A DNA stretch of 64,000 bases. Origin: Microglena sp. YARC (lineage: Eukaryota > Chlorophyta > Chlorophyceae > Chlamydomonadales > Chlamydomonadaceae). The translations under genes and the position numbers were made by a program. The stretch is taken from the NCBI GenBank assembly GCA_022414725.1, contig CM039464.1:23897532-23961531 (forward strand), in the 5' to 3' direction. Under the pieces are notes generated by a model. The model ran no database searches and had not been told where the DNA came from. It worked only from the letters and a program-made list of their open reading frames with translations. Below are positions 21,510-64,000 of the stretch, one piece after another. Position 1 is the first letter of the stretch. The number at the start of each line of letters is the position of its first letter.

Positions 21510-22217
21510 TTACAACATCCTTAGGAGATCCGAGACAACATCCGTGGCAGCATCATTAGGAGAATCCGCGGCAACAACATCATTAGGAGAATCCGAGACA
21601 GTATCCGTGGCAGCATCCTTAGGAGAATCCTTGGCAGCATCCTTAGGAGAATCCTTGGCAGCATCCTTAGGAGAATCCTTGGCAGCATCCTTAGGAGAAT
21701 CCTTGGCAGCATCCTTAGGAGAATCCTTGGCAGCATCCTTAGGAGAATCCTTGGCAGCATCCTTAGGAGAATCCTTGGCAGCATCCTTAGGAGAATCCTT
21801 AGGAGAATCCGCGGTAGCATCCTTAGAAGAATCCACGGCAGCTGAGCGACCTCCACCTGCTTTCCAGAACGTGTCGCACCGTTCGCAAAAGTACAAGAAC
21901 TTCAGGTCGGCGTCCTACTTTATGAAGAGAACAGAGGAAGATCCCCCATCGTTGTTGCGGCTGCACGTGGGGCAAGGGATGTTGTGTGCCCGAGGCAGCG
22001 TCACGTCGTACCGGATGTTCTTCGACATGAACTGATCATAAGAATTCCGGTCGTCTGAGTGGTTGCTCTCGAAGATGCAGGCGTCCTTGACGGGAGCGAC
22101 GCTCTGGCAGTTGCGACATTCAAAGTACAAACGCTGCTCATCGTTCTGACCAGATGAAGACTGCGACGACGAGCGAATGAACATCATGTTGTCACAGGCA
22201 TCGCAAAAACGCATCAT
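21510..22217 (-). CDS. rpb9: RNA polymerase subunit RPB9-like, in-frame TAG and repeat tail
   Basis: The N-terminal zinc ribbon reads MRFCDACDNMMF..LYFECRNCQ, followed by YDVTLPRAHNIPCPTC and, after an in-frame TAG (21915-21917), DADLKFLYFCERCDTFWK, the second zinc ribbon. The order and Cys pairs match RPB9 of eukaryotes and giant viruses (transcription elongation and proofreading). The same frame runs on both sides of the stop, so one base change (probably from a Tyr codon) and not an indel explains it. After the ribbon the frame continues through about 10 repeats of KDSPKDAA, an unusual extension. The start is one of two adjacent ATGs (22212-22217). Confidence 0.88.
21596..21812. repeat. 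24-bp minisatellite in the RPB9-like tail
   Basis: About nine tandem copies of TTGGCAGCATCCTTAGGAGA ATCC, encoding KDSPKDAA on the minus strand. The copies are nearly perfect, whereas the flanking repeats (with ATCATTAG and GTATCCG variants) are older. Confidence 0.85.
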
Positions 22218-22274
22218 CGTGCAGACGCAAATCTTCAAATACGGTACATAAGGTATAGTAATCCTTTTGTTAAA

Positions 22275-23095
22275 ATGGAAGTCCCTTTACACTCAACTAA
22301 CGCAGACTTCATCAACGCAGTCTCAAGGCTTGCCAGCACCCAAAAATGCGCTACGGCCACGGAAACAATGTCTGACACAGGATCCTACTAGTACAAGAAT
22401 ACGCGGTCATGGACTGGAAAAACACCCAACCCGAAGTAGACATCGTGGAATGGGATAGATTGTGTAAACGCGCAGTGCCAAACATAGACAATAAAGGAGT
22501 ACTACAACTTGTCCCCGAGCACCCAACCAGTGCACAAAGTGATGCACTCACGATAATTTACCAAGGAATCTCCAAAAACAAAGAAATCGTGCGCATACCG
22601 AGTGAGGTTTTGTCGATAGCCTCCTGCTTCAGTACTCAACACGCATCGGACACAAGTTCGTGACCACGCTACAGAACATTGCCGCGAATTAACTCCAACA
22701 TGTTTTGCAGATTCGTGCTGACGTTCAATAAACCTACCACCAAACACACAAGCACAGAGGGAATCTCACTTCGCAACCGCATTCAAAAAACTCTTCCACG
22801 CCAACGAAGAACACTGCATCATTTGCATGCCCGATAACACGCACAAGACACAGCTGTTCCATCTGTCCGTTCTACTCAACAACAAATGAAATGATTCGGA
22901 CGACCAGAGACTGGAAGAGGCAGTCGGTTTTTGCACGCAACACAGTACGCAGGAGAAGCCGCAAAAACACAAGAAGTCGAACTGCGTCAAAGCGACAATA
23001 TTTGACCTCACGGTTATAGCGGCAATACACAAATCCGTTCAAGAAGAAGACGAGCATGACGATACTACTACAGTCGGAGACACAAATTGTGAATA
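22275..23095 (+). pseudogene. Uncharacterised gene broken by two frameshifts and a TGA
   Basis: Starts MEVPLHSTNADFINAVSRLA, changes frame near 22385 (MDWKNTQPEVDIVEWDRLCK, ending 22663), and returns to the first frame from about 22761 (FATAFKKLFHANEEHCIICM), running to NCE-stop at 23095 with one in-frame TGA at 22887. The third part has EHCIIC and later GFCTQH, a possible zinc site. It is divergent from RPB9, separated from it by about 57 bp. No family is recognised. Confidence 0.5.
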
Positions 23096-26388: not shown

Positions 26389-26739
26389 TCAGGTATGTTC
26401 TCAACCACTTGTGACCCCAAGGACGGTGCGAGAAGGAACTCGCAAAGATCCCCCCAGGCGACCTCATCAACCGCTGGAATATCAACATCAACACAAACCC
26501 CAAATCAAGAAGACCTCAACCCTAAAGAGCAGGAATGCAATCACAAAGCTCGTGCAGATCATCAGACAGCACTACGAAGCAGAAGGAGATTTCCGATAAG
26601 GCCCACACGCGACTTCTATATCTCTACGATAAGCTCAAGATTGCAAATCATGGAAGCGTGCGGCACCGGCCCCAAGTTGTGCAGCACCGTTAACAGCGCA
26701 ATCAAGACCCAGAAGAAAATAGGGAAGCTGAACTCGTAA
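26389..26739 (+). pseudogene. Small broken gene upstream of RPB2
   Basis: Coding-like pieces in two frames: Gln/Pro-rich, then SRNAITKLVQIIRQHYEAEG (to 26599) and SAIKTQKKIGKLNS (stop at 26739). One or two indels near 26595-26650 would join them. No family is recognised. It runs in the same direction as RPB2, 60 bp upstream of it. Confidence 0.35.
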
Positions 26740-26798
26740 ATTTCCCCGACAATAAAAAAACACACACAAAATGTAGACGCGACGCAAAAAAATACACT

Positions 26799-29700
26799 AT
26801 GCACTACACTCCCGACGCCGCAGCCGCACCCATCATGGACGCATTCTTCAAGGAACGCGAGAAACACTTCGCTACACAACATCACATCGACTCGTTCGAT
26901 GACCTACTAGGAACGCGTCTAAGAGCGATCGTACGCAGCATGAACCCAATCACAATGGTGCGCGAAGACCCCAACACAAAAAACAAACACACTGTGAAGG
27001 TGTACGTAGGAGGAGACAAAAAACTCCGCCCCGATCACGACGTGCACATAGGAGACCCAACCCCAACTCTACCATCACAAGCCCGTATAGCAAACCAAAC
27101 GTACGGTGCGACAATCTTCGCAGACGTCCACGTGGTCTATCCGGACGACAACGACGAGACACGAGACTTCGAACGCGTGCACATCGGATTCATGCCCATC
27201 ATGATCCACTCCAAAGCCTGCTCTCTAAAGGGCTAAAGCCGCACCAGTTACGAGCACGAGGAGAATGCCCATACGATATGGGCGGGATACTTTCGTAATA
27301 GACGGACGCGAAAAAGGTCATTGTGACACAAGAGGAACGCGTCCCGAACCGACTCTACACACGACGCGGAGAGAAAATAGAATACGACAAACTCATCCTA
27401 AAAGCATTCATCAGGTGCGTCTCCACAGACGCACGAGACGTGTTCCCACGCACAAGCGTTCTTCCGAGTCATGACATTCGGGTGAAATCACAGCCACGGT
27501 CACCCAACATCAACGAAGGAGCCGTGCCCGTCACAACTCTCTTCCGAGCACTCGGCATCGAAAGCGATCGCGCCATCCTCAAAACCATCTTCCACGAAGA
27601 TCCAGGAGAAGAGAGAAACCCAAGGTCAAAAAATCGAATTCATGCACGCATCCATAGCCTCAGGACACAAGTCCGGAGTAAGCAGCCAGAGAGGAGCCAT
27701 AGATTTCCTCATACCATGCACACGATTCAAGTCCCAACTCGACCTCAAAAGCGTCCTCACAGACGACCTCTTCCCAAATGTAGGACGCACGTTCGAAGCC
27801 AAAGCAATCGCCCTAGGAGAAGTCGTGAGACATCTCGTAAGAGCCGCTCTAGGAAAATAACCCATGTCGGAACTCGATCACTACGCCAACAAGAGACTCA
27901 TGTGCTCAGGTGCAATCACAGCCAATTCTCTTCAGAGACGCGTACCTCACTATCAATCGCCAACAACCCTGCGCACGCTCAACGAAGAGTTCCTCACCGG
28001 ACCATGGCGCGTCGCAAACGATATACACACGCTCGTCAACGAAGCCAACCTGAAAAATATATTCCAACCAAGAATCATCCGAGAAGCCCTTGTAAAAGCA
28101 CTCAAAGGATCGCGACGCGGCGATGACAATGCACGCGCGCCCGTCCAAGAACTCAGCAGAGTCTCATATCTAGGATACATTTCACACATGAGACGAGTAA
28201 ACAACCCCGTCGACAGGAACGTCAAGATAGCAGACACACACCGTCTAAGGCCGTCGCACTGGTGAGTCATCTGCCCAGTAGAGTTCACCAGACGGACCCA
28301 ACGTAGGCCTCCTCACGCACCTAGCCACGCTTGTCACCATATCACTTGCCATACCAGAACCCGTCGTACAAGAAACCATAAGACCCGCCATAGACAAATA
28401 CACGAGACATCTATCAAACAGCACACTATCCCCACAATCAACCGCGGTGCACTTTAACGAACAACATGGATAGCGGTCACAGACACACCCAAGGAACTAG
28501 TCGATGCCACTACGAAAAAATGAGGACGGAAGACACCAGACTGAACACACTCGGCGTCACATGGGACGTGTGGAGGAACGACGTGGCAATCGCACAGATG
28601 CAGGAAGATGCTGCAGACCACTAAGAAGAGTACAGGAAGGAAAGGTCGTACCAATCAACGGCGATCCGTCGTGGACCGAATTGATTACGCAGCGGAGCGA
28701 TCGAAATGATAGACGTCGAAGAAGTAGCTACATGTCTAGTGGCAATGAACGGAGGCAGACGTCAACAATCGAGACCCGATCCCAGGCAGATACACGCACG
28801 CAGAGATACACGCAGGAAGCACACTCTCAATGGTAAGCAACACCTACCCACTTCTTAACCACAACAACGGGGCGTACAACTCACTATGTCTAGCGCAATT
28901 TAAACAAGCGCTAGGCACGACCATGACATCCATCAGGGACCGGTTGATACGAAACACATTCCTACTACACCACGCCCAACGCCCTCTGGTAAGCACGAGC
29001 TTCGCAAACCGACTCTTCGGAGGACGTTTCGCGCACGGCGAGAACGTCGTAGTAGCAATTGCCACATACACAGGACACAACCAAGATGACGCCATCATCA
29101 TCAATCTAGACGCCGTGCAGCGCGGCCGACTAGCACTCACAGTATTCGAAACCATCCGGTACGAGGAGTCAGAGGAGGAACCAGAGACCCAAACATTCAA
29201 AAAAACAAAAAACCAAATTGTGTTTGCGAACCCACAGCGGCTAGTGTCACGCGGGTACGCCCTATCAACCACTACCAAAAACAACCACAAAAAGAATACA
29301 CAAACCTCGACGAACATGGAATGCCAAAGGATCAACAAAAATGCTAAGAGAAGGAGACGCAGTTGTAGGAATGTTCAAGGTACCATCGACCGCAGCAAAG
29401 GAAGACGTCTTCACGGACGCATCTCAAACGTCTACAATCCCGAGAATCTGACCTTCCCACGTATGTAGACGCGTCCACTTGCAAAAAATAGATCAGAACA
29501 CAGCAAAAGACAACGCACTACCACAACTTAGAGCATGCAAAGTACGTCTCCGCCAGATGCGCAGCCCCGAACTAGGAGACAAAACTAAGCTCGCGTTACG
29601 GCCAGAAAGGTGGTGGGAATGATTCTACCCGCCGTGGACATGCCGTTCTGCGCAGAGGACGGTATCGTACCCGACATCATCATCAACCCCAATGCATTCC

Positions 29701-30214
29701 CCAACCGTAGGACAGTCTCGCATATACTGGAAGCCGTGCTAGCGCGCGAGGAGCAGTCAAAGGAGCTCGCCATGAACGCCGACACATTCGGAGTGTGAAG
29801 ACATCGGAGCCGCGCTGACCCAACTGGGTCTGCGTGAAAACGGACACGGGAACATGCTCATGCACAACGGACGATCCGGAGAAGAGGCGAAAACACGCAT
29901 CTCTGTAGGCGTGAATTACTACGGTCGCTTGAAACACATGGTAGAGGACAAGTACCAGTCGCGTGCACGAGGAGCAAGTCGACGCCACAACACGTCAGCC
30001 AACGAAGTCCAAGGGACAGAGCGGAGGGCTGCGCATCGGAGAGATGGAGCAGAACGCACTCGTCGCACACGGACTCGCATCGTTCACACGCGAAGCGTTC
30101 ATGCAGCGCAGCGATCACCACTCAACTAAGGTCAATGCCACGACAGGAACGCCGGCGGAATGGTGGGCCGCAGCACGCGAAGACCCAGAAGGACCGACGA
30201 GAGGCGAATGTTGA
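26799..30214 (+). pseudogene. rpb2: RNA polymerase second-largest subunit (RPB2), multiple frameshifts
   Basis: The whole order of RPB2 can be followed across the frames: IVRSMNPI and PSQARIANQTYGA (26.9-27.1 kb), GECPYDMGG and VTQEERVPNRLY (27.27-27.36), TTLFRALGIESD (27.55), FPNVGRTFEAKA (27.78), DHYANKR and LSRVSYLGYISHMRR (27.87-28.2), TYTGHNQDDAIIIN (29.07-29.11), [18 protein letters not shown] (29.64) and RLKHMVEDK with RQPTKSKGQSGGLRIGEME (29.93-30.05). At 3.4 kb it has full-length size. At least eight frame changes and one in-frame TAA (27858) break it, yet motif residues are intact. The catalytic loop has GHNQDD where most homologues have GYNQED. This is the polymerase core subunit of a virus that makes its own transcripts. 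Confidence 0.93.
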
Positions 30215-34407: not shown

Positions 34408-34725
34408 ATGACAAGGTGTAACAACAACAACCTCGCATCTAATGGGTACATGAAGGACGCTTTAGCGGTTGTCGCGTTCCTTATCGCATTGGTTGTGATC
34501 GTTGGGAGACCTTGCTCATGGTGGTGTTCGCCCTCACAGAGAAACTTGATCATCCTCGTGCTCGTCTTGTGCGGGTCCATAGACCTTCTCTTCACACTGA
34601 ACCCAGAGTGGCACAACCGACCGTTCACGGGGGCCGACGCACCAAGCGCGTGCATCTGTTTCCAGGCCATATCTATGATAGCAGGTATAGTGTACGCCGT
34701 ATTAAGTGTTGACCCTAAACCCTAA
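34408..34725 (+). CDS. Small membrane protein running into a telomere-like array
   Basis: The ATG at 34408 gives 105 residues with three hydrophobic segments (ALAVVAFLIALVVIVG, LIILVLVLCGSIDLLF and MIAGIVYAVLSV). The last codons (DPKP-stop) come from the CCCTAAA array that begins at 34714, so the original C terminus may have been replaced. No family is recognised. Confidence 0.5.
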   Translation: MTRCNNNNLASNGYMKDALAVVAFLIALVVIVGRPCSWWCSPSQRNLIILVLVLCGSIDLLFTLNPEWHNRPFTGADAPSACICFQAISMIAGIVYAVLSVDPKP

Positions 34726-34804
34726 AACCCTAAACTTAAACCCTAAACCCTAAACCCTAAACCCTAAACCCTAAACCCTAAACCCTAAACCCTAAACCCT
34801 AAAC
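34714..34804. repeat. Interstitial telomere-like array (CCCTAAA)n
   Basis: About twelve copies of CCCTAAA, with two imperfect units near the left edge. This is the plant/algal-type telomere repeat, here internal to the scaffold and followed directly by an element terminus (34829). A shorter match (ACTAAACCCTAAACC) precedes the satellite at 53954. Confidence 0.95.
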
Positions 34805-34828
34805 CGGTAGTTTGTCGAATATTTATTA

Positions 34829-34964: not shown

Positions 34965-35860
34965 TCAAGTAAGCGTACTTGCGGAGCGTCCGACCCTCTG
35001 CGGCGACCGAGGCGCGGAACAGCTCAGAGTCCTGCTACCGCGCACTCCCCCATGTCGCGTCATGAGGACGTACAAGTCCCGATGGAACCACCCGTTCAAC
35101 ACTTTAACTGCAAGGTAGTCCATGACCTTCCCCTCATTGTCGTACTTGGCAAGGAAGCAGTTGGCATGGGCCGACCCGAAAAGGCCAATACTGCATACGT
35201 GCTTCAGCAGGACGAGATGTGTGTCCGCGAGGTGCCCGACGATCTTCTCGTAAACATCGATTTCTCGCCCGTGCGGCTCAACGTCAATGATCACCAAGTC
35301 GAATCTGTTGCTGCTCCTGCTTACGAGGTCCGTCGTCGTCGTCTCATCAAAGACGTCGCCGAGGATCTCGGTCATGCCGACGCCACACACGCGAGCTTCA
35401 GCGACCTAGCCGCGAAACCGCACGTCTCCGGCATGGCCTTGTCGATGCAGGTGTACTCGGCAGAAGCCGCAGGAATCAGAGAGGCGATCTGTCCTGCGCT
35501 TGTCCTGCGACCGCAGCCCACGTCGATGATGCGCAGTGGCTTGCGGTCGCTAGACGCAGCAAGCCCCACCTGGTTCATGAGGGCGCTACTGAACGCACTG
35601 TCTCCCTCGTTCTTGCTGTACGACGCGATATTTTCTTCCAAAGTTGGAGGCTTCTTCGAGAACGCCTCGATGACGCGGGACGTCGCGATGTACAGGACAG
35701 ACTCCATGTTGCACGAGGCATGTTTCTTGACCCCACAAATTGCTCGCCCAGGTGCACACTCCTCATCCTCATCCCCTTCATAATCGACAAGTTCTGCAAC
35801 GTCATCATGTTGGTCAGCCTCATGTTCATGTACAAACGAATGATGACTCGACGACCCCAT
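34965..35860 (-). CDS. SAM-dependent methyltransferase-like protein, one or two frameshifts
   Basis: It starts at an ATG (35858-35860) with an acidic N-terminal tail (DYEGDEDEE). Motif I is RIIDVGCGRRTSAGQIA, followed by a beta-strand/acidic end YTCIDKAMP. A frame change near 35385 leads to RFDLVIIDVEPHG (a motif IV-like strand) and HLVLLKHVC, then YLAVKVLNGWFHRDLYVLMT. This order fits a Rossmann-fold methyltransferase; the substrate is unknown (RNA cap or protein both possible). The last codons before 34965 may be out of frame. Confidence 0.6.
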
Positions 35861-35949: not shown

Positions 35950-36077
35950 TTGCCATTCGAACCCGTCGTACAAGAAAGACAAAGACACGAGACATCTCTC
36001 AAACAACACACTATCCGCACAAGCAACCGCGGTGCAATTGAACGACGCATGGATACAAGCGATCACAGACACAATCG
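35950..36077 (+). pseudogene. Fragment of a second RPB2 copy
   Basis: Bases such as GAACCCGTCGTACAAGAA, ACACGAGACATCT and CAACCGCGGTGCA match, in order, 28361-28484 inside RPB2, with an internal deletion and about 10 percent differences. Nothing of RPB2 is visible on either side. It is a partial duplication. Confidence 0.8.
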
Positions 36078-36178
36078 ACCGTCGGTCAAAGTTGTACATT
36101 AAGAATTGATTACATACACAGTAAAGTTGTACATTGATTGGAACATACCAGTATTGACCGGTCTGAGTGCAACAAATC

Positions 36179-37134
36179 ATGGAACTTCTCCCTGCAGGCC
36201 CACTCCACATCATCGCGTTGCATTTATCAAAAAGTGATGATAAGTACCATCGATTATGCGACGTCTCAGAGGACGCCGCGAACCTCATGTTGGTGGGAAA
36301 CGTAGCGTTCACCCGAGCTTAGTATTGCGGTGCAAGAGAAGCTGGAGCCTGGTGTTTCGCCTCGTGAACGATGCAAGTGTTCGAGAGGATGCGTATTCAC
36401 GAGGGTCTTTCAGAGGCAAGCAAAGCGGATGTTCTAAAAGAAGGCGTGTCGAGATCGTGGACTGATGGTTTCTGGTTTCAAAAGCCGCATTGTGGAGGAG
36501 GCTGATGGAGGCGGAAGTGTCGCTCGCACCCCCTAAGAGTGTGCATCCTGTCTGCAAAATTCCGTTCAGAAATGAGGGGCTATGCGCTCAGCACGCATGT
36601 GTGTGTCAACGGTCAAGTTAGAGTATCGCTTGACCGAGAGGGATCTCACGACCCTGAGTTGCGAACTCAAACGAAATCCGATGTATCGGTCAGCAGCACC
36701 GATGCGTTTATATCTTATCCGCGACGTGGCTGGGGTTGCGCTTAAGAAGCATGCATCATCATCCCATACACGTATTCGAGTCCCCGCCATCTCTGCGGAT
36801 GAGCGACGTACCTCTCGGGAGACGTTGCTTTCCAAGAAGCTTGGTGACATGACGTTGGATTCCAGGATATTCTCCCGTTTCGGAATCCGCATGCAGGGCC
36901 AGAGATTTGTACGTGAATTCTGGAAGAGGGGGGGGTGCTGTGAAAGTTGCTGCAGACATCATTGCTACAAATACTCGCCTTCACATTTTGGAGAGGGCTC
37001 TCGAGGATCGAGGGTGTGAACTTCGCAGTGACTCTCGTTTGTGCACAGGTTTTATTGACAACGACGACGGAGATCCAGAGGACATCGCTGTATCGATGCT
37101 TGAGATGAAATTCTTTCACAACCACACTGAGTAA
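36179..37134 (+). pseudogene. F-box-like protein gene, frameshifted
   Basis: It starts MELLPAGPLHIIALHLSKSD, an F-box-like N terminus, then changes frame several times: SEASKADVLKEGVSRSW near 36410, RLTERDLTTLSCELKRNPMY (36630-36690), RETLLSKKLGDMTLDSRIFS (36820-36880) and finally LERALEDRGCELRSDSRLC with a clean stop at 37134. About 310 residues if joined. F-box proteins recruit substrates for ubiquitination. The C-terminal part is not recognised. Confidence 0.5.
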
Positions 37135-37932: not shown

Positions 37933-37959
37933 TGTAAGCGCTCATCTGCTCTCACAATC

Positions 37960-38146
37960 GCAAGGCTTCATTCATTGCATGGAACTGTTGGGTCAAGGGA
38001 GACCGCTTCCATTTTGCAGGGATGCGTGTTGTTGATGGGCTACAAAAAAACATGATGGTGTTCCACTGCAAAGTGGGTTGCTACACCACTTTAAGGTGTA
38101 CCCCGTACACTCCAGAAAGCGGTTCATTTAAGTATTCCGTCGAGTG
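37960..38146. mobile_element. Inverted end fragment of the Fanzor/mariner family (E6)
   Basis: In the opposite orientation to the complete element: the Fanzor 3' end (GGAACTGTTGGGTCAAGGGA GACC), the noncoding block (TGGTGTTCCACTGC..GGGTTGCTACACC), the hairpin, and the terminal GTATTCCGTCGAGTG before TA at 38147. It faces the left terminus of the element at 38644, 500 bp away. Confidence 0.75.
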
Positions 38147-38159
38147 TACACCTGATTAT

Positions 38160-38517: not shown

Positions 38518-38643
38518 CGAATGTAGTAAGCCGCCTACAAACCATTTATACTCAATCTGAGAAAGTTGGACATGCCATGCGATTCTCAGTTTTGCAAACA
38601 GTGTATTTGAGATGTCAACGCAAATTAAGTGTACCGCTTGTTA

Positions 38644-38760
38644 CACTCGACGGAATACTAAAATGAAACCGCTTTCTTGAGTGTACGGTACACCTTATGG
38701 TGTACCTTATGTGTAGCAACCCACGGGGCAGTGGAACACCTTCATGTTTTTTGTAGCCCA
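38644..38760 (-). ncRNA. Candidate guide-RNA (omega RNA) scaffold at the element end
   Basis: Between the Fanzor stop and the terminal repeat lies a noncoding block with the hairpin GGTACACC-TTAT-GGTGTACC and the stretch TAGCAACCCACGGGGCAGTG GAACACC. The same block is kept in E1, E2, E3 and, inverted, E6, even where the Fanzor gene is gone. TnpB and Fanzor guide RNAs are transcribed from the 3' part of the element through its end. An RNA role here is inferred from position and conservation. Confidence 0.4.
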
Positions 38761-41110
38761 TCAACAACACGCATCCCTGCAAAATGGAAGCGGTCTCCCT
38801 TGACCCAACAGTTCCATGCAGTGCAGCCTTGCGATTGTGAGAGCAGAGGAGCGGTCCCGGTCCGAGTAAGTGCTGGTTTCTGGAGAGAATCGCAGTCCTC
38901 GTACCTCAGGGTACCGCTTGATCGAGTTGTTGTCGACAAGAGAGGGGGCTAAGCCACCCCTCCTGTGTTTTTTCTTGGATTTTTTACGTGTGCAGTACAC
39001 CCTCACCGCCAAACTGGTCGCGATAAGAGACCTTTGGAGTCTCCTTCAATTGGGTGTGACCCAACAACTCGTAACCTAGACGAATCTGCCCTTCCGTGGT
39101 ATTTGGACACTTGGAATTTTGTAAACACATTCCTTCTTGGCACCGGTTTCCCAAGACATGAGAGTCGTCTTGAACTCATCTGTCACATGAACCTCCTCTT
39201 TGAAGAGGCGCTTGCAGGAAGCAAACATAGATCCCGTAGGCACAGCTACCTCTCCTGTCCGGTAGCCTTCAGAGTCGTGATTGCAGAACCATATGCTACG
39301 CGAACCCTCAGGCAGGATGATCCAACTTCATGTTGCGCTTGATCCCTGCCCAAAATGAGTCCATAGCCTTGCGCTTGCCAATGTCCCTCTGAAAGTTGTC
39401 TCGGGATTCTCTGCGACGGAGTGCCATCCTCCACCACTCGTCGGAAAACGTAGCGTAATTTTTCAAGTAAGCCGAGATATCATCCTTTCTGGATGTTACT
39501 CAACGCTGCTCCATTTTCACGAAGAGACTCCCATCTAGGAATCATGTCTGAGAAACGTTTTTCTTGCTGTTTTTTCTGTTTCTTGATACCAGACTTGTAG
39601 TAAAAAGCTCCGTGTGTAAGCTTCCATGTCTTGCTTTTGTCGTCTGCCAGATACGTGACTGTAGCGATGTTGCTCCTACCAGGATCCACACCCAGAACGA
39701 CGATACCCATATCGGGCAATGTCGTTTTGAGTTTATGGTCATACTGTTCTGAGACGCTCATACCTTCATCGTCACGAGACCTCTTACTTGTCTTCTTCAG
39801 ATCGGATACACGAAACCTGCTACTGTCTTGCTTGTACTGCAATGCTCAATGAGACTCCGTCAGTACAGATGCTACAATCGAACACCCACCCCGTCTTGAC
39901 AGTGGTTTCTTGAAGAAGGAACCTGCGACTGTTTTTCGGGCGTTCACGAGCGTGTCATACCTACCCTTGCATGTCTGTACTCGTCAGTAGCCTTGATATC
40001 ATTAACGTCAGTATCGTACTTCTGTTGGGCCAACTTGTATGCCTCCCATTCACCAGGACCACATGATTTTTTCTTCTTAACTGCAGGCTCAGAGGCAACA
40101 TGAAGCGGTCGGGATCCTTTACATTTTTCCACTTTGAAAGCTCGACGATGTTTGGGTCTTTGGGGAACACGTGCCTGAATAAGTTCACGAGGGTCTTCAT
40201 GTCAAGGCGGACATGCGCCCGTTGGACATTAAAGATGGGCATCAACCGGATACGACGTGCACCAATAGCCTCCAACCGTGTCTGCATCCAATAATTGAAC
40301 CGGACCATGGTCGGGAAGTCCATGTCTTTGCCATAGTCATCATAAAGTCGACTTCCATCTGGAACTTTCAGCCTGACTCGAACTTCACGGACATACTCCT
40401 GAACAGACTCTGGCCAAGATTCCATCTCCTGTATTTCTTGTTGGATAACCCTCATCACGTCGTACACACGGATGGTCTTCGGAGCTCCCAGTGCATTCAA
40501 AGTAGCCTTAGTGAGGCGGGTCAGACGAGGTACCAAAGGAACCCATGCGTTGTTCGACACGACAGTGCTCAATGTGTGACCGGCATAGTTCAAAAACCTG
40601 GTCGAAATAGATAGGTAGGAGTTGATGTAGTCAGGGCCATCGCTACCAAGCACCTTTCCGATTACGTCTTTCACGGATTCGTATGATATTCTACTCTCTT
40701 CATCTGGAAAGACGCCGTCAACTCCGATCCTTAGCCAATCCTTCCAGTAGGTATCCTTCATATCGTACATATTAGGAATCGGCAGGTCGCCCTCCATGAG
40801 CCTCGTGACATGGAAAGTCAGCAACAGACTGGAACGCCGCAACATGCGGCTCACCACATTGACGAGCTGATCCACATGCCCCCTGAAACTTACCGAATTC
40901 TTCATTGTCAAGACTCATTGCCTTCTTCAAGGCGCATTTCACAACGCACATCTTTTCCACCGTCTTGTACTCTGGAGGGGGTCTGGCGATGAGACCATTG
41001 TCTTCGCATAAACGGACAATATCGTCCTTCTTGTCCTTTGAGGAGTATGCTACTTCGGCCAATTTTAGTAGCTCCTTCAATTTCGCGACTGTCGGAGGTT
41101 TCGTTGCCAT
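38761..41110 (-). pseudogene. Fanzor (TnpB-like RNA-guided nuclease), frameshifted
   Basis: The ATG at 41108-41110 starts a small SAP-like region (TVAKLKELLK..KKDDIVRLCEDNGL). Next, LLTFHVTRLMEGDLPIPNMY and FNYWMQTRLEAIGARRIRLM with HVRLDMKTLVNLF match the N-terminal half of Fanzors. TDGVSLSI lies near 39860. RuvC-I is VVLGVDPGRSNIATV (Asp at 39684-39686), the RuvC-II acid lies in VTDEFKTT (Glu at 39175-39177), and RuvC-III is RGLRF..SDRDRSSALTIARL (Asp near 38860). At least six frame changes break it. All three catalytic acids are present in the pieces. The related TnpB and Fanzor proteins cut DNA guided by an element-derived RNA. Confidence 0.85.
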
Positions 41111-41169
41111 CTTACATAATTTGTACATCACAGAACTCTTTATACAAACATTCACATACGTGTTCCATA

Positions 41170-41620
41170 CGTGTTCCATACGTGGTCACCTTAGCGAAGC
41201 ACAGCTCAATAGCATTGAATTCTGGACTGTAAGGAGGAGTGTAACAAAATATTTACGGGGCTTCTGAGGACCAAGTTCTTATGGATACTGGCGTTGTCCA
41301 TTATTACTACTGAATTATTGCACAAAACTCAATGAGTCAATAAATGCAGCGAAGTCCGTCTTCTTCACAGATCCTTTCTTCACAACGAACTCCTTCCTAC
41401 CATCTGAAAAAACTGCCATCAACAAACTATGGTGTACCCACCCACCAGTAGTTTTAACGATAACAGGTTTTCCTACAGGGGAATACCCATAATGTGGCTT
41501 GAGACTCTCACTAAACCCACATTCGTCAAATGATACTACAATTTTCCCAGCATTGATTGTATCCTTGTATCTACTACAAAATTCAGTGACAAGTGAAACT
41601 AAGTCCCCTTTACACTGTCC
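41170..41620 (-). pseudogene. Tc1/mariner (IS630-like) DDE transposase, C-terminal part
   Basis: Minus strand: KIVVSFDECGFSESLKPHYG (first Asp), PVGKPVIVKTTGGWVHHSLL, then after one frame change VVIMDNASIHKN (second Asp) and after another TPPYSPEFNAIELCFAKV (final Glu). The spacing of about 32 residues between the second Asp and the Glu fits the DD34E type. The N-terminal DNA-binding domain is missing, since only 70 bp separate the remnant from the terminal repeat. A piece of the same gene recurs at 50195-50235. Confidence 0.88.
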
Positions 41621-41765
41621 AATTTTCTAACGGCGATGTCGTACATTTATTTCCATCTGATATATGTTTCATTTTACTGTTTCGCCGACTGTAGATACCG
41701 CCAACAAAACACAGGCTAGTGGAAAACCCTGAACCCACGTACTATATCATCTTCTCGCTTGCATT

Positions 41766-43200
41766 ATGTCTGTCCATCAAGATGCATTCTCTCACGCGTC
41801 CATCATCATCATCATTCTTCGTCGTCGTTTCCTGTGCTGACGACGTCGTTGCCACGTGAAATTATGTTTCAAATCGCCATTTGTCTTCGACCCCCCGGAT
41901 CGTCCTACTGTGCAAAACCCTGCGCAACGGATTCCCGGGAGCGGCCCTCGCCCAACTGATCAGTCCGCCGCATAGAGCAGGAGAGATGATGGCGAAGGGG
42001 GGCGTGCCGACCTCCTAAAAGTATGCTTGGAGTCAGATCCCCTGCGCATCAAAGGTAAAGAAGGCAGACGCCGCAGGCACCCACCCATACCACCAAAATT
42101 TAGGGCGAACGCAATCAACAGCAGGCCCTGTGGGCGGCGGCCAAGGCAGGCCACGCAGACGTGTGCAGACTACTAATGGACCCAACGGTGGCTGGACGTG
42201 CGTTCCGGGGCACGCCGCGAACGCCGTCAACAGCAGGGCCCTGTGGGATGCAGCCAAGGCGGGACACGCAAGTGTCTGCAGCTGCTGATGGACCCCGCGG
42301 TGGCTGCCATGCGTCCAGGGCCCGCGCGAACGCCGTTCAACAGCAGGGCCATGTTTGAGGCGGCCAGGGCAGGCCACGTAGACGTGTGCAGACTACTAAT
42401 GGACCCCACGACGGCCGGCGGCCACTCGTCCAGGGCCCGGGCGAACGATGACAACAGCAGGGCCCTGTGGCGGCGCCGCGGCAGGCCTCGCTGACGTTTG
42501 CAAGCTGCTGATGACCCGGTGGTGGGCGGGCCCCGGGTTCAGGCGCGTGCGAACTACGGCGACAGCTGGGCATTGAGATTGGCTGCCCAAACGGACACGC
42601 GGACGTCTGCAAGCTGCTGATGGATCCAGCGGTGCTGGAATTGAGTTCAGGGCCAGGCGAAGGCTTGCAACAGCTGGCATTGAGATTGGCTGCCCAGAAC
42701 GGACACGCAGATGTGTGCAGACTACTAATGGACCCCACGGCGGCAGGTGCCCCGAGTTCCGGTCCTGGGCGAAGCTACGGCGACAGCTGGATCTTGTGTG
42801 CGGCCGCCAGGGAAGGCCATGCGGACGTCTGCAAGCTGCTGATGGCGGCCCCCGGTTCCCGGCACGCGGGAACGCCGCCAACAGCAGGGCCCTGTGGGTG
42901 GCGGCCGCTGCAGGCCACACGGACGTGTGCAGACTACTAATGGACCCCGTCGTTGCAGGAGGCCACGAGTTCCGGGCCCGGGCGAACGCCGTCGACAGCA
43001 GGGCCTTTTGTGAGGCTGCCAAGGCAGGCCACGCGGACGTGTGCAGACTACAAATGGACCCCGTGGTGGCGGGCGACGAGTTCCGGCCCGCGCGAACGCC
43101 TCAAACAGCATGGCCTTGTGCGAGGTGGCCAAGACAGGCTACGTGGAAGTCTGCAAGGTGCTGATGGATCTAGTAATGGTGGAGGCAGGCAGGCCATGAG
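41766..43200 (+). pseudogene. GC-rich F-box/ankyrin paralogue, frameshifted
   Basis: An F-box-like start (SLPREIMFQIAICLRPP, 41850-41900) and the linker GEMMAKGG match the genes at 0.8-6.4 kb. About nine repeats follow with GHADVCRLLMDP and GHADVCKLLM cores, spread over all three frames. It is on the opposite strand to the first cluster and clearly more GC-rich (GCGGCC-type codons). If intact it would encode about 450 residues. Many one-base indels are seen, several in G or C runs. Confidence 0.7.
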
Positions 43201-44778: not shown

Positions 44779-44875
44779 TGTGAGACTTAGTAATTACATC
44801 GAAAAAATCATCAAGAACGGACAATCATGGGCAAAAGTGAAAATGCATGATCGAAGACGCACCATATTTCCTTTA

Positions 44876-45818
44876 CAGTCAACGAATACTTAAATGAAAC
44901 CGCTTCGTGTACGGCACACCTTGCGGTGTAACCTAATGTTGTCGCGACCACCGGAGGGGGACCGAGTGGTGTCTACAACAATACGAGTTTTTATTCATCA
45001 ACAACAACAGAGCTGCTGTGGGCAAATGGAAGAGGTCGTCCTTAGACCATCAATTCCATGCAGTGCAGCCTTGCGATTGTTGAGAGCAGAAGAGCGATCC
45101 GGTCCGAGTAAATGCATGTTTCTGGAGAGAATCGCAGTCCTCGTACCTCTGGGTACCGCTCGATCGATTTTTGAGAATCGACAAGGGAAGTGGCGAAGCC
45201 ACCCCTCCTGTGCTTCTCTTGTGCGCCTTTACGTTTATTGTACAACCTTACCCTAAGTGGTCGCAATCAGCCGACCTTTGGCATAGTTTTCGATTTCGTG
45301 TGACCAAAAACGTTCACCACCAACCTAAGCTTCACGTCTGCTGAACAAACGCTTGGGATCTTGTAAACACGTTCTTTTTCTTTACCCGCCTCCCACGACA
45401 TAAGAGTCGTTTTGAACTCATCTGTCACAGAAACGTCCTCTTTGAAAATTCTTTTACACGATGCGAACATGGCCCAGTGGGAACTGCAACTTCTCCCGGT
45501 CCAGTAGGCTTCAGTTTCGTGATGGCAGATCCGTAGCCACGCAACCTTCATAGCAGGAAGTTCTTTCATCATGCACCGCTTGATACCCGCCCAGAAAGAG
45601 TCTTTGAACCTTTCGTTTTCCGATGTAACGCTGCAAGTTGTCACGGATTCTCGGCGTCGCAAAGCCAATCTCCACCACTCGTCAGAAAACTTAGCGTAAT
45701 TTGACAAGTACGCCGAGATCTTATCCGTCCTCGATGTACTCAAAGCCAATTTTCTAACGGCGATGTCGTACATTTATTTCCATCTGATATATGTTTCATT
45801 TTACTGTTCCGCCGACTG
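44876..45818. mobile_element. Deleted Fanzor/mariner element (E5)
   Basis: The left end TA|CAGTCAACGAATACTTAAAT G and the right end TTTCATTTTACTGTTCCGCC GACTG|TA define a 943-bp element. The 75 bp at the right end are nearly identical to those of E4. Only the C-terminal part of a Fanzor lies inside; the transposase and the Fanzor N-terminal half are gone. The element has inserted at the 3' end of the gene at 45830-46255. Confidence 0.85.
45000..45745 (-). pseudogene. Fanzor C-terminal fragment (copy B)
   Basis: Minus strand: ISAYLSNYAKFSDEWWRLAL, DSFWAGIKRCMMKELPAMKV, VTDEFKTTLMSWE (RuvC-II acid, Glu at 45417-45419), then after one frame change EVRGLRFSPETCIYSDR and TIARLHCMELMV. In copy A the last part reads SDRDRSSAL; here the second Asp-containing triplet is altered by an indel. 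The RuvC-I part is absent, so it cannot encode a nuclease. It differs from copy A at many positions, so the two diverged some time ago. Confidence 0.8.
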
Positions 45819-45829
45819 TAGACACGAAA

Positions 45830-46255: not shown

Positions 46256-47059
46256 CTGCGCGGTAGAAAGTGCTAGGCTTAACGACAGGATATACTATCC
46301 TCACGTCTGTCCCGAAGTTGGTCATGTCGAACACAACCACCTGCACTCCACCCGCTCCATTCTCCTTGTACTTCCCTAGAATATCGGGCTTAATGCGTGG
46401 TGAAGTCGACATCCGGTAGTTATCTTTTTTAGTGGGATTAAGAAGGTCGTTGATTATGATACGACGCACGAAGGATACGTCGGGCACGTCTTCCAAGCCC
46501 CCCCGAGAGAGACGTTAGTGAGCTTGACATTCACATGCATCCACTTGTTTGTAGCGAGCGAGAGATTGTCGTAACATTGTTGTATATCTGTTGTTGGGGA
46601 TGGTGATGTACGCATAGTGTGGAAGTCCCCGAACTACCGTGTGTAGCAGACGGAAGTCAACCACAATACCAATTACGTCTTTGACCTGTATGGTGTCGCC
46701 GATGCGGTAGATTGCAAAAGGTTGCAAATCAGCACACCCGATAAGAAGTCGCCAAGCACTCCCTGCATTGCCAGACCAATGGTTAAACCGAAAGCGGTAA
46801 TAATCGCAACCACACCCGTTGTGTGCAGCCCCACGGCCTGCATTGTCACAAACACACCCAGAATTATAACGACCCAGAACGCCATCAAGGCGATCAGCCT
46901 GGTGAGCACGCTCCGCTTGTCATCTGTCTTAATGTCCCCTAACTCCTTTCCTGCATCGTCTGATTGTTGTAGGGTCACGGCGACGATGTCACGGTCCTTG
47001 GCCAGGACGAGTCCCCGAATACCGACCGCGATTGCAATGGTCACCACAATCATGACCAT
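46245..47059 (-). pseudogene. MscS-type mechanosensitive channel, frameshifted
   Basis: The ATG at 47057-47059 is followed by a hydrophobic helix (MVMIVVTIAIAVGIRGLVLA), a second (LIALMAFWVVIILGVFVTM) and the pore helix AFGLTIGLAMQGVLGDFLSG, very close to the MscS TM3 pattern. A frame change near 46725 leads to QPFAIYRIGDTIQVKDVIG and YITIPNNRY, the beta domain. A second change near 46510 leads to SFVRRIIINDLLNPTKK and VQVVVFDMTNFGTDVRIVYP, the alpha-beta end. It has about 270 residues, the size of bacterial MscS. This is a different subfamily from the channel at 10-11.7 kb. Confidence 0.85.
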
Positions 47060-47229
47060 CGCAATCCCTCGCGGGTCAATATGCCGCGACTAGAAAGATC
47101 CCAAATGTTCGATTCTTGTTGTTTTACCCCCCCTTTGCCCTTAACGGAATATTTTGTCAAACGACTCAAAGTTTTTGAGGCGGCCAACATTCTTATAAAG
47201 TAAATATCTTAAATTTAGATGGTGCATAA

Positions 47230-53984: not shown

Positions 53985-56900
53985 AGCCTAATCAATTGTA
54001 ACTGTAAACCATTGTAACCACTGAGAAAATGAGATTATTTGTTTGTCACATGGTCAATTGAGAAAATGAGAAAATGAGAAAATGTGATTCTTTGTTTTCA
54101 CATGGTTACAAGTTACTCAGTTACACACACATTGATTGAATCAAAAAATGAAAATAAAGTCCTACTTAACGCATGAAGTGTTTTTCATTGAGCAGGAGTC
54201 TGCTTGATCCCTATGTCCTTCTCCCCACCCTTAATAAATCCAATTGTAACTGTAAACCATTGTAACCACTGAGAAAAATGAGATTATTTGTTTGTCACAT
54301 GGTCAATTGAGAAAATGAGAAAATGAGAAAATGAGAAAATGTGATTCTTTGTTTTCACATGGTTACAAGTTACTCAGTTACACACACATTGATTGAATCC
54401 GAAAATGAAAATAAAGTACCTTAAACGCAATGAAGTGTTTTTCATTGAGCAGGAGTCTGCTTTGATCCCTATGTCTTCTCCCCACCTTAATAAATCAATT
54501 AACTGTAAACCATGTAACCACTGAGAAAAATGAGATTATTCAGGTGAGAAAATGAGAAATGAGAAAATGTGATTCTTTGTTTTCACATGGTTACAAGTTA
54601 CTCAGTTTCACACACATTGATTGAATCAAAAATGAAAATAAAGTCCTACTTAACCTGAAGTGTTTTCATCAGGAGTCTGCTTGATCCTATGTCCACCCTA
54701 ATAAATCCAATTGTATGTAAACCATTGTAAATGAGAAAAATGAGATTATTTGTTTGTCATGGTCCCCATTGAGAAAATTGAGAAAAAATGAGAAAATGTG
54801 ATTCCTTGTTTTTCCACATGTTACAAGTTACTCAGTTACCACACATTGATTGAATCCGAAATGAAAATAAAGTCCTGCATAGTTTCAAACACATGAACTG
54901 TCTGTTATTTGTCATTGTAGCATCACACATTGAAAATGAGGGAAATGAGAAGCTGTTTGATCTTATTGTTTTTCTATGATCTTCTTCCCCACAATAAATC
55001 CAATTGTAACTGTAATTGTAACCACTGAGAAAATGAGATTATTTGTTTGTCACATGGTCAATTGAGAAAATGAGAAAATGAGAAAATGTGATTCTTTGTT
55101 TTCACATGGTTACAAGTTACTCAGTTACACACACATTGATTGAATCAAAAAATGAAAATAAAGTCCTACTTAAAACGCATGAAGTGTTTTTCATTGAGCA
55201 GGAGTCTGCTTGATCCCTATGTCCTTCTCCCCACCCTTAATAAATCCAATTGTAACTGTAAACCATTGTAACCACTGAGAAAAATGAGATATTTGTTTGT
55301 CACATGGTCAAATTGAGAAAATGAGAAAATGAGAAAATGTGATCTTTGTTTTTTCACATGGTTACAAGTTACTCAGTTACACACACATTGATTGAATCCG
55401 AAAATGAAAATAAAGTCCTACTTAACGCATGAAGTGTTTTTCATTGAGCAGGAGTCTGCTTGATCCCTATGTCCTTCTCCCACCCTTAATAAATCCAATT
55501 GTAACTGTAAACCATTGTAACCACTGAGAAAAATGAGATTATTTGTTTGTCACATGGTCAAATTGAGAAAATGAGAAAATGAGAAAATGTGATTCTTTGT
55601 TTTTCACATGGTTACAAGTTACTCAGTTACACACACATTGATTGAATCCGAAAATGAAAATAAAGTCCAACCAAACGCCATGAAGTGTTTTTTTCACATG
55701 ATGCATCCCTATGTCCAATTGTAACTGTAAACCATGTACCATAGAAAAAATGAGATATTTGTTTGTCACATGGTCAAAGTAGAAAATGAGAAAATGAGAA
55801 AATGAGAAAATGATAATTACTCACACATTGATTGAATCAAAATGAAAATAAAGTGATTTTTCATTAGCAGAGTCTGCTTGATCCCTATGTTTCTCCCCAC
55901 CCTTAATAAATCCAATTGTAACTGTAAACCATTGTAACCACTGAGAAAAATGAGATTATTTGTTGTCACATGGTCAAATGAGAAAATGAGAAAATGAGAA
56001 AATGTGATTCTTTGTTTTCACATGGTTACAAGTTACTCAGTTACACACACATTGATTGAATCAAAAAATGAAAATAAAGTCCTACTTAACGCATGAAGTG
56101 TTTTTCATTGAGCAGGAAGTCTGCTTGATCCCTATGTCCTTCTCCCCACCTTAATAAATCCAATTGTAACTGTAAACCATTGTAACCACTGAGAAAAATG
56201 AGATTATTTGTTTGTCACATGTCAATTGAGAAAATGAGAAAATGAGAAAATGTGATTCTTTGTTTTCACATGGTTACAAGTTACTCAGTTACACACACAT
56301 TGATTGAATCCGAAAATGAAAATAAAGTCCTACTTAACGCATGAAGTGTTTTTCATTGAGCAGGAGTCTGCTTGATCCCTATGTCCTTCTCCCCACCCTT
56401 AATAAATCAATTGTAACTGTAAACCATTGTAACCACTGAGAAAAATGAGATTATTTGTTTGTCACATGTCAATTGAGAAAATGAAATGAAAATGAGAAAA
56501 TGTGATTCTTTGTTTTCACATGGTTTACAAGTTAAACTCAGTTACACACACATTGATTGAAAATCCGAAAGTGTTTTTCATTGAAAGTTGATTAAAGTCC
56601 TACCAAACGCATGAAGTGTTTTTCATTGAGCAGGAGTCTGCTTGATTGATCCCTATGTGTTTTTCATTGAGCTTCTCCCCCACCTTAATAAATCCAATTG
56701 TAACTGTAAAACCATTGTAACCACTGAGAAAAAATGAGATTATTTGTTTGTCACATGGTCAAATGAGAAAATGAGAAAATGAGAAAATGTGATTCTTTGT
56801 TTTCACATGGTTACAAGTTACTCAGTTACACACACATTGATTGAATCCGAAAAAATGAAAATAAAGTCCTACCTTAACGCATGAAGTGTTTTTCATTGAG

Positions 56901-59900
56901 CAGGAGTCTGCTTGATCCCTATGTCCTTCTCCCCACCCTTAATAAATCCAATTGTAACTGTAAACCATTGTAACCACTGAGAAAAATGAGATTATTTGTT
57001 TGTCACATGGTCAATTTGAGAAAATGAGAAAATGAGAAAATGTGATTCTTGTTTTCACATGGTTACAAGTTACTCAGTTACACACACATTGATTGAATCA
57101 AAAATGAAAATAAAGTCTACTTAACGCATGAAGTGTTTTTCATTGAGCAGGAGTCTGCTTGATCCCTATGTCCTTCTCCCCACCCCTTAATAAATCCAAT
57201 TGTAACTGTAAACCATTGTAACCACTGAGAAAAATGAGATTATTTGTTTGTCACATGGTCAATTGAGAAAATGAGAAAATGAGAAAATGTGATTCTTTGT
57301 TTTTCACATGGTTACAAGTTACTCAGTTAACACACATTGATTGAATCCGAAAAATGAAAATAAAGTCCTACTTACAAACGCATGAAGTGTTTTTCATTGA
57401 GCAGGAGTCTGCTTGATCCCTATGTCCTTCTCCCCACCCTTAATAAATCCAATTGCTAACTGTAAACCATTGTAACACTGAGAAAAATGAGATTATTTGT
57501 TTGTTCACATGGTCAAATGAGAAAAATGGAGAAAATGAGAAAATGTGATTCTTTGTTTTCACATGGTTACAAGTTACTCAGTTACACACACATTGATTGA
57601 ATCAAAAAAATGAAAATAAAGTCCTACTTAACGCATGAAGTGTTTTTCATTGAGCAGGAGTCTGCTTGATCCCTATGTCCTTCTCCCCACCTTAATAAAT
57701 CCAATTGTAACTGTAAACCATTGTAACACTGAGAAAAATGAGATTATTTGTTTTGCACATGGTCAAATGAGAAAATGAGAAAATGAGAAAATGTGATTCT
57801 TTGTTTTCACATGGTTACAAGTTACTCAGTACACACACATTGATTGAATCCGAAAATGAAAAATAAAGTCCTATATAAACGCATGAAGTGTTTTTCATTG
57901 AGCAGGAGTCTGCTTGATCCCTATGTCCTTCTCCCCACCCTTAATAAATCCAATTGTAAACTGTAAAAACCATTGTAACCACTGAGAAAAAATGAGATTA
58001 TTTGTTTGTCACATGTAAATGAGAAAGAAAAATGAGAAAAATGAGAAAATGAATTCTTTGTTTTTCACATGTTACAAGTTACTCAGTAACACACACATTG
58101 ATTGAATCGAAAATGAAAAATCCTACCAAACGCATGAAAGTGTTTTTCATTGAGCCAGGAGTCTGCTTGATCCCTATGTCCTTCTCCCCACCCTTAATAA
58201 ATCCAATTGTAACTGTAAAACCATTGTAACACTGAGAAAAATGAGATTATTGTTTGTTTGTCACATGGTCAATGAGAAAATGAGAAAATGTGATCACATG
58301 GTTACAAGGTTACTCAGTTACACACACATTGATTGAATTCCGAAAATGAGCATGAAGTTTTTATTCATTGATGTCCTTCTCCCCACAATAAATCCAATTG
58401 TAACTGTAAACCATGTAAACCACTGAAAAAATGAGAAACATGTCAATTGACTTTGTTTTCACTATGGTTACAAGTTACTCAGTTACACACACATTGATTG
58501 AATCCGAAAATGAAAATAAAGTCCTACCAAACGCATGAAGTGTTTTTCATTGAGCAGGAGTCTGCTTGATCCCTATGTCCTTTCCCCACCCTTAATAAAT
58601 CCAATTGTAACTGTAAACCATTGTAACCACTGAGAAAAATGAGATTATTTGTTTGTCACATGGTCAATTGAGAAAATGAGAAAATGAGAAAATGTGATTC
58701 TTTGTTTTCACATGGTTACAAGTTACTCAGTTACACACACATTGATTGAATCCGAAAATGAAAATAAAGTCCTACTTAAACGCATGAAGTGTTTTCATTG
58801 AGCAGGAGTCTGTTGATCCCTATGTCCTTCTCCCCACCCTTAATAAATCCAATTGTAACTGTAAACCATTGTAACCACTGAGAAAAATGAGATTATTTGT
58901 TTGTCACATGGTCAATGAAGAAAAATGAGAAAATGAGAAAATGTGATTCTTGTTTTTCACATGGTTACAAGTTACTCAGTTACACACACATTGATTGAAT
59001 CCGAAAAATGAAAATAAATCCTACCAAACGCATGAAGTGTTTTTCATTGAGCAGGAGTCTGCTGATCCCTATGTCCTTCTCCCCACCCTTAATAAATCCA
59101 ATTGTAACTGTAAACCATTGTAACCACTGAGAAAATGAGATTATTTGTTTGTCACATGGTCAAATGAGAAAAATGAGAAAATGAGAAAATGTGATTCTTT
59201 TGTTTTTCACATGGTTACAAGTTACTCAGTTACACACACATTGATTGAATCCGAAAATGAAATAAAAGTCCTAGAAAGGAGTCAAACGCATGAAGTGTTT
59301 TTCATTGAGCAGGAGTCTGCTTGATCCCTATGTCCTTCTCCCCACCCTTAATAAATCCAATTGTAACTGTAAACCATTGTAACCACTGAGAAAAAAATGA
59401 GATTATTTGTTTGTCACATGGTCAAATGAGAAAATGAGAAAATGAGAAAAAGTGAATCAAGAAAAAAAGTGTTTTTCATGATGAAAATTGTCACATGAGT
59501 TTACAAGTTACTCAGTTACACACACATTGATTGAATCGAAAATGAAAATAAAGTCCTACTTTAACGCATGAAGTGTTTTTCATTGAGCAGGAGTCTGCTT
59601 GATCCCTATGTCCTTCTCCCCACCCTTAATAAATCCAAATTGTAACTGTAAACCATTGTAACACTGAGAAAAATGAGATTAATTTGTTTGTCACATGGTC
59701 AAAATGAGAAAATGAGAAAATGAGAAAATGTGATTCTTTGTTTTTCACATGGTTACAAGTTACTCAGTTACACACACATTGATTGAATCCGAAAATGAAA
59801 AAATAAAGTCCTACTTACAAACGCATGAAGTGTTTTTCATTGAGCAGGAGTCTGCTTGATCCCTATGTCCTTCTCCCCACCCTTAATAAATCCAATTGTA

Positions 59901-62900: not shown

Positions 62901-64000
62901 TCCCCACCCTTAATAAATCCAATTGTAACTGTAACCATTGTAACCACTGAGAAAAATGAGATTATTTGTTTGTCACATGGTCAATTGAGAAAATGAGAAA
63001 ATGAGAAAATGTGATTCTTTGTTTTCACATGGTTACAAGTTACTCAGTTACACACACATTGATTGAATCGAAAAATGAAAATAAAGTCCTACTTAAACGC
63101 ATGAAGTGTTTTTTCATTGAGCAGGAGTCTGCTTGATCCCTATGTCCTTCTCCCCACCCTTAATAAATCCAATTGTAACTGTAAACCATTTGTAACCACT
63201 GAGAAAAATGAGATTATTTGTTTGTCACATGGTCAATTGAGAAAATGAGAAAATGAGAAAATGTGATTCTTTGTTTTCACATGGTTACAAGTTACTCAGT
63301 TACACACACATTGATTGAATCAAAAAATGAAAATAAAGTCCTACTTAACGCATGAAGTGTTTCATTAGCAGGAGTCTGCTTGATCCCTATGTCCTTCTCC
63401 CCACCCTTAATTAAATCCAATTGTAACTGTAAACCATTGTAACACTGAGAAAAATGAGATTATTTTGTTGAGAAAATGTCACCATGGTTCAAATTGAGAA
63501 AAGAGAAAATGAGAATGTGATTCCACTTTTGTTTTCACGGATGGTTACAAGTTACTCAGTTACACACACATTGATTGAATCGAAAATGAAAATAAAGTCC
63601 TACCAAACGCATGAAGTGTTCATTGAGCAGGAGTCTGCTTGATCCCATATGTCCTTCTCCCCACCTTAATAAAATCCAATTGTAACTGTAAACATTGTTA
63701 ACCACTGAGAAAAATGAGAATTATTTGTTTGTCACATGGTCAAAGAGAAAATAGAAAATGAAACCTAATGTGATTCTTTGTTTTCACATGGTTACAAAGT
63801 TACTCAGTTACACACACATTGATTGAATCCGAAAATGAAAATAAAGTCCTACCAAACGCATGAAGTGTTTTTCATTGAGCAGGAGTCTGCTTGATCCCTA
63901 TGTCCTTCTCCCCACCTTAATAAATCCAATTTGTAACATGTAAACCATTGTAACACTGAGAAAAATGAGATTATTAGTTTGACCACATGGTCAAAATGAA
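53985..64000. repeat. Satellite DNA, about 40 tandem units of about 249 bp
   Basis: Each unit contains, in order, AATAAATCCAATTGTAACTG, TAACCACTGAGAAAAATGAG, TCACATGGTCAATTGAGAAA, two to three copies of AGAAAATG, TTTCACATGGTTACAAGTTA, ACACACATTGATTGAATCC, ATGAAGTGTTTTTCATTGAG and GATCCCTATGTCCTTCTCCC. Spacing between equivalent points is mostly 245-261 bp. Differences are mainly indels in A, T and C runs; larger deletions lie near 54.5-54.9, 55.7-55.9 and 58.3-58.5 kb. The array leaves the window at 64000. There is no coding capacity; the short ORFs in it are accidental. Confidence 0.97.

Follow-up and report, generated by a model that had tools for sequence, protein, structure and literature searches.

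The stretch examined here, hereafter the window, comprises 64,000 nucleotides (nt) of the green alga Microglena sp. YARC (assembly GCA_022414725.1, contig CM039464.1, positions 23,897,532 to 23,961,531 of the forward strand), and lies on a 63-Mb contig of a genome of 568 Mb in 2,390 contigs. Within it, the remnants of a transposase gene and of a Fanzor nuclease gene are enclosed by terminal inverted repeats, and this unit is probably a dead copy of a cut-and-paste IS630/Tc1/mariner transposon of DD29E type that also encodes a Fanzor1-type nuclease and for which a restoration mechanism guided by an omega-RNA is proposed. The element and its parts occupy the following positions of the window:

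38642..41693, no strand assigned: decayed Fanzor-bearing IS630/Tc1/mariner element, both TA duplications included (terminal repeats, matches to other copies).
38642..38669, plus strand: left terminal repeat with TA, on the Fanzor 3' side (repeat search, shared with other copies).
38761..41110 (approximate), minus strand: Fanzor1-type gene with a broken frame (bounds inferred from the open frame of copy L019 and the start common to relatives).
41140..41646 (approximate), minus strand: DDE transposase remnant, shortened by two larger gaps relative to full copies (comparison with full copies; family from the open frame of L019).
41666..41693, minus strand: right terminal repeat with TA, on the transposase side (repeat search, shared with other copies).

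The terminal repeats are 28 nt long and 82% complementary, with TA at each end, and other copies end identically; the bounds 38644..41691 given in the initial annotation were thus right to within the TA that the repeats include. Since other copies match the unit at 95-98% identity in their main pieces, and since a clean empty TA site was found for five of 22 element-like units, the terminal repeats are not a chance similarity, a possibility that the initial annotation had itself raised, and its proposal of a mariner-type unit with inverted repeats and flanking TA stands. Alignment of the window copy with L019 covers 3,038 positions, 101 of them mismatched, and requires 20 small indels plus two larger gaps. 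Its Fanzor had been called full-length, which is true of its extent but not of its frame, the longest open piece being 317 codons (39964-40914), while all three RuvC acids pointed out at that time (GVDPG near 39680, DEF and DRD) are indeed present and the DDE transposase was correctly seen as a remnant. As its sequence reads, the window copy is dead and not a working Fanzor. No clean empty TA site was found for this copy in the joined-flank comparison described below, and phage records gave no match to its DNA.

The window copy belongs to a large family. A DNA search with the window element, in which the best 40 of 2,139 first-look candidates were scored, returned 87 matching pieces, a lower bound in which a candidate is not yet a copy, and a search with the Fanzor protein found 2,057 candidates, of which 56 were scored and yielded 57 matches, again a lower bound of copy number. 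The family is represented on C1 to C5 as well as on small contigs, and full elements are nested with ghost copies, short forms that retain both ends of the element along with its 3' segment. Among 20 copies fetched with their flanks, 14 exceed 3,400 base pairs (bp; 3,430-3,469), and these full copies show a median pairwise divergence of 1.04% (range 0.23-1.85%). Both frames are open at full length in four of the 20 (L013, L019, L023 and L026), the Fanzor frame alone in L027 and the transposase frame alone in L021. Both genes lie on one strand with the transposase first; in L019 the first ATG of the Fanzor frame overlaps the transposase by 28 nt and the start common to relatives falls after the transposase stop. 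Judged by these comparisons, the family is young, recently active and of high copy number. Two further pieces lie in the window:

37939..38148, minus strand: left-end piece of the same family in inverted orientation, separated from the window element by 493 nt.
44874..45820, minus strand: copy, with an internal deletion, from a related subfamily; it contains a Fanzor piece at 45270-45773 (likeness to protein P0003 judged by eye).

The transposase of L019 exceeds the cut-off of the NCBIfam equivalog model for IS630, a likeness to IS630 transposases from which the family departs by its eukaryotic genome, by the Fanzor alongside and by the spacing of its catalytic acids. The DDE/D triad is present in 53 of 53 aligned transposases, and the second spacing is 29 in the family and in 31 of the 53 (34 in five). 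Named Tc1/mariner subfamilies include DD34E, DD34D and DD37D, none of which fits a spacing of 29; the name DD29E was not found in the open literature searched, and the transposase had no sequence match in the PDB up to E 1.

With respect to the nuclease, the catalytic D-E-D triad is invariant in 40 aligned Fanzor proteins: the DPG motif of RuvC I occurs in 40/40, the E of RuvC II in 40/40 and followed in each by T or S and then T, and RuvC III has D in 40/40 and R in 39/40. A profile search matches the element protein to Fanzor1, and the seven best solved matches of a structural model of P0003 (79% identical to P0001) are Fanzors, among them SpuFz1 of Spizellomyces punctatus and PpFz, which we take to be a Fanzor1; by fold, entries for Fanzor2 and TnpB scored a lower Z (10.5 and 9.6) than did Fanzor1 entries. 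Profile and modelled fold place the element nuclease with Fanzor1, and not outside the TnpB/Fanzor clade, the outcome that the initial annotation had named as contrary to its reading. A Ni-superoxide dismutase, the best phmmer match in the PDB (E 7.6e-4), covers some 80 residues, is absent from the profile search and was taken as chance.

How the family inserts was assessed by comparing the joined flanks of the 22 element-like units with other sequence across the junction, which gave a match for eight units and none for 14. Five of the eight are the clean empty TA sites, belonging to the full elements of L013, L014, L016 and L026 and to a 427-nt ghost of L013; these matches are 94-99% identical and have TA followed by G in all five. 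The other three comprise a ghost site with three extra bases, the insertion of L010 in a dispersed repeat (seven matches at 80-86%, TA then G in six) and one site with a deletion. Three positions of the window bear on this comparison:

35038..35197, plus strand: empty site of the L014 full element, a single TA then G (joined-flank comparison).
35974..36138, plus strand: site of a 383-nt ghost copy found in L014, at which the window has three extra bases, read here as a putative excision scar (joined-flank comparison).
41694..41694, plus strand: G after the right-end TA, the C of the predicted 5'-CTA on the Fanzor strand (right-end comparison, empty sites).

At 34712-34805 the plant-type telomere repeat ACCCTAA forms an internal array of about 13 units; an empty element site lies about 230 nt away.

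All 33 right ends examined (two of which share a flank) have G directly after their TA, against a background in which G follows 18.8% of all TA in these loci; over 37 left ends, the base preceding TA is unbiased. Because the empty sites carry it, this G belongs to the target. Viewed on the Fanzor strand, 5'-C-TA precedes the element and the proposed guide side follows it, and the one-sided rule is read as a predicted 5'-CTA target-adjacent motif (TAM). A 44% relative, L042 (3,175 bp, perfect 31-nt repeats, no transposase between them, Fanzor in two frames), has C-TA at its 5' end, where a single C has a one-in-four chance of occurring, and about 113 nt from the stop to its final TA; its bin is labelled Bacteroidetes, which we read as mis-binning. 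A second relative, L043, is truncated by its contig and gave no repeat like that of L042.

The same rule could come from the transposase, in which case the Fanzor would be a passenger that takes no guidance from the 3' flank and no part in spreading. IS630 prefers CTAG, the transposase passes the IS630 model, ghost copies lacking either full gene follow the same TA-G rule, and covariation gives no support for an RNA. A preference of the transposase would, however, be expected equally at both ends, yet the left-end neighbour is unbiased, and amino-acid changes are in deficit among the open Fanzor frames. Moreover, SpuFz1 elements and their ghost loci are described as having a conserved CA before the 5' repeat which, with TA, forms the CATA TAM demonstrated by cleavage (PMC10432273). 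Taken together, we consider a mere passenger Fanzor unlikely.

A candidate for the guide RNA lies at the other end of the Fanzor strand:

38642..38746, minus strand: about 105 nt at the Fanzor 3' end, common to ghost copies, predicted omega-RNA scaffold (analogy with SpuFz1, PMC10432273).

In L019, 120 nt separate the Fanzor stop from the TA; the last ~105 of these are common to full and ghost copies, whose inner parts differ. For SpuFz1, a 3' RNA segment consisting of a 75-nt scaffold and a guide of 14-15 nt has been described (PMC10432273), and it is by such position, not by covariation, that an omega-RNA is predicted in the present family. It may be proposed that the transposase cuts the element out and inserts it at a TA; that the last stretch of the Fanzor strand would give rise to an omega-RNA with the DNA just past that end as guide; that the guided Fanzor would cut the vacated, or still empty, homologous site beside 5'-CTA; and that repair from the filled homologous copy would restore the element, with ghost copies using both proteins in trans. 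A more far-reaching version, in which the family runs on two engines, the DD29E transposase reaching new sites and a zinc-finger-free Fanzor, guided by its 3' flank beside 5'-CTA, homing into empty homologous sites within repeated segments of endogenous giant viruses and serving ghosts in trans, is put forward tentatively and appears rather improbable. What the sequences show of the transposon itself is that it has inverted-repeat ends and duplicates TA, that its copies are many and young, and that empty sites and one scar-like site exist.

Besides the possible transposase origin of the target rule, several findings weigh against a Fanzor1-type element restored by an omega-RNA. The fold of the 3' segment is only modest: similar hairpins are formed in four copies (z -0.7 to -2.1; -0.02 for the opposite element end, taken as control). 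Compensatory change was found in none of 22 consensus pairs, which is to say that none had changed on both sides (covariation term +0.79), and Rfam gave no match for one full copy up to E 1. A CxxC pair of the C4 zinc finger between RuvC II and III is present in 0/40 aligned proteins (94-141 residues from E to D); this finger is included in the Fanzor1 motif as described by Bao and Jurka (PMC3627910), while a later paper ascribes it to "many" Fanzor1. Finally, L025 and L028 occupy one insertion site, with the closest 60 nt identical on either side and, to the right, a difference of about 2% across 1.3 kb; their elements differ by 30 bases, as against 12 between L028 and L023, so that they are not mutually nearest, which simple homing between these two does not predict. 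Element conversion, separate occupation of one site or an assembly fault would explain this puzzle.

The element lies in giant-virus-like surroundings, as the initial annotation had claimed, with the following genes in the window:

21918..22286, minus strand: open reading frame (ORF) with an RPB9-like zinc ribbon (Pfam, 24.0 bits, narrowly under the cut-off of 25.2).
26694..30211, plus strand: divergent RPB2, split among separate open pieces with domains 1, 2, 3, 6 and 7 (Pfam).

Domains 1, 6 and 7 of RPB2 exceed their Pfam cut-offs, and domains 2 and 3 fall narrowly under them. Because the best solved match of the domain-6 piece, the Pol II RPB2, reaches only 71.7 bits over 140 residues, with poxviral and other viral RPB2s lower still, the gene is read as probable viral-type divergence and not as a host gene; no relative of two RPB2 pieces was confirmed in IMG/VR. 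The viral RPB2 named in the initial annotation is therefore there, in pieces; the D5 gene named with it is not borne out, no window ORF scanned against Pfam matching D5_N at E 0.01. The AEP domain of a C962R-type viral protein was matched by two of 125 window ORFs in one scan (best E 4.2e-5), and two further scans of 10 chosen window ORFs each gave no match to it; capsid proteins had no match among the window ORFs scanned. GC content was rejected as a viral marker: a satellite array (53993-63994, unit of about 250 nt, abutting the viral-like part) accounts for the AT-rich end of the window, and eight random 4-kb stretches have a GC of 0.45-0.54, like the viral-like part. Other neighbours include ankyrin-repeat genes with units of about 111 nt (807-6098 and 42105-43155), also found beside copies L011, L013 and L016, a weak match to the XPA C-terminal domain in the ORF at 36576-37016 (E 1.2e-4, under the cut-off) and a probable mechanosensitive channel piece at 46518-47089 (MS_channel_2nd in one of 125 ORFs; position judged by eye).

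Genome-wide, major capsid protein gave 59 matches, 57 over the cut-off and 42 without an inner stop, at about 49 places, as against none in 14 control genomes; D5_N gave at least 150 matches (150 of 614 candidates scored, all over the cut-off), and three of the 14 control genomes match it too. Going by these matches, the genome bears a heavy load of endogenous large DNA viruses. Copy L027 lies 1.8 kb from a capsid gene whose protein is 98-99% identical to EukProt entries and 63% identical to a Tetrabaena socialis protein. Flanks of the copies hold 93 ORFs of at least 170 residues, of which 70 were scanned; among the matches listed (25 of 55 matching families) are one capsid protein, one TFIIS-like and one RFC1-like protein and five with ankyrin repeats.

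When 70 copies on C1-C5 and 42 capsid places were compared with uniform random placement, six copies lay within 100 kb of a capsid place against 1.18 expected (none of 2,000 placements reached six; the highest in a second run of 1,000 was six), and 30 lay within 200 kb of a listed D5_N match against 6.5 expected (highest of 1,000 placements 15). Within 10 kb of a capsid place there was no enrichment (one copy; 241 of 2,000 placements reached one), and the median distance from copy to capsid place is 2.0 Mb, against 4.2 Mb for random points. Relative to uniform placement, copies are enriched near viral genes. This enrichment, together with L027, a 74% relative on a contig of up to 148 kb and published precedents (PMC3627910; PMC13236599), agrees with an element brought by giant viruses and still living mainly in viral DNA. 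On the other hand, the median copy is far from any capsid place, a repeat-rich compartment would give the same enrichment under a uniform null, the D5_N matches may include Polinton-like viruses, and two scans of IMG/VR confirmed no Fanzor relative; viral carriage is accordingly conceivable, with the balance somewhat against it. It stands at about even that an ordinary host transposon merely landed in decaying viral DNA: copies are spread over C1 to C5 and small contigs and nested with ghosts, and the empty sites, in segments 94-99% identical, agree with insertion postdating the split of those segments, as opposed to the enrichment near viral genes and to the 12 element-end matches in the window (chosen for the element), compared with none in the eight random stretches. 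Since the window holds one copy of a high-copy family on a chromosome-scale contig, its position beside viral genes does not show viral carriage.

The initial annotation had seen in this locus a concrete link between mariner and giant-virus settings, which is already in print: Bao and Jurka (2013) described Fanzor1 in Tc/mariner elements, one of them in a Phaeocystis virus, and suggested viruses as spreaders of Fanzors (PMC3627910), and a 2026 Nature Microbiology paper on Ectocarpus reports that endogenous giant viruses carry a Fanzor transposon of IS4 type, which is polymorphic (PMC13236599). A 2025 paper on Euglena reports transposons in endogenous giant viruses, and the word Fanzor does not occur in its accessible text. 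PGv-1 of Phaeocystis globosa virus joins a mariner-type transposase and a Fanzor1 in one TA-flanked element in giant-virus DNA; by its description it is a single copy with a GIY-YIG nuclease as third gene, in contrast to the two genes, high copy number, ghost copies and missing C4 zinc finger of the present family (PMC3627910). The Ectocarpus element resembles the family in that it, too, is a Fanzor transposon, one whose insertions in endogenous giant viruses are polymorphic, and differs, as reported, in its IS4 type, its 8-nt duplication and its confinement to viral elements, whereas the Microglena family is of IS630/mariner type, uses TA and has many copies genome-wide (PMC13236599). Spu-1, which carries SpuFz1, shares TA duplication, repeats of about 30 nt and ghost loci; by its descriptions, no transposase was found, its TAM is CATA and its PDB entry names an OrfB_Zn_ribbon protein (PMC10432273, PMC3627910). 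Beyond these papers, and in literature that was partly searched, with no search aimed at a zinc-finger-free Fanzor1, the present case contributes the absence of the zinc finger, the second spacing of 29 (DD29E), the one-sided rule for the target and a collection of empty sites.

For the role that Fanzors play in the elements that carry them, this family offers a natural test, uniting in one genome a young element whose transposase and Fanzor frames are both open, ghost copies, empty sites that pair exactly with filled ones and a sharp one-sided rule that predicts a TAM. A Fanzor1-type clade without the zinc finger would show that part to be dispensable in the group and, if the family does run on both a transposase and a guided Fanzor, RNA-guided homing would pay among the viral segments that this genome holds in many nearly identical versions.
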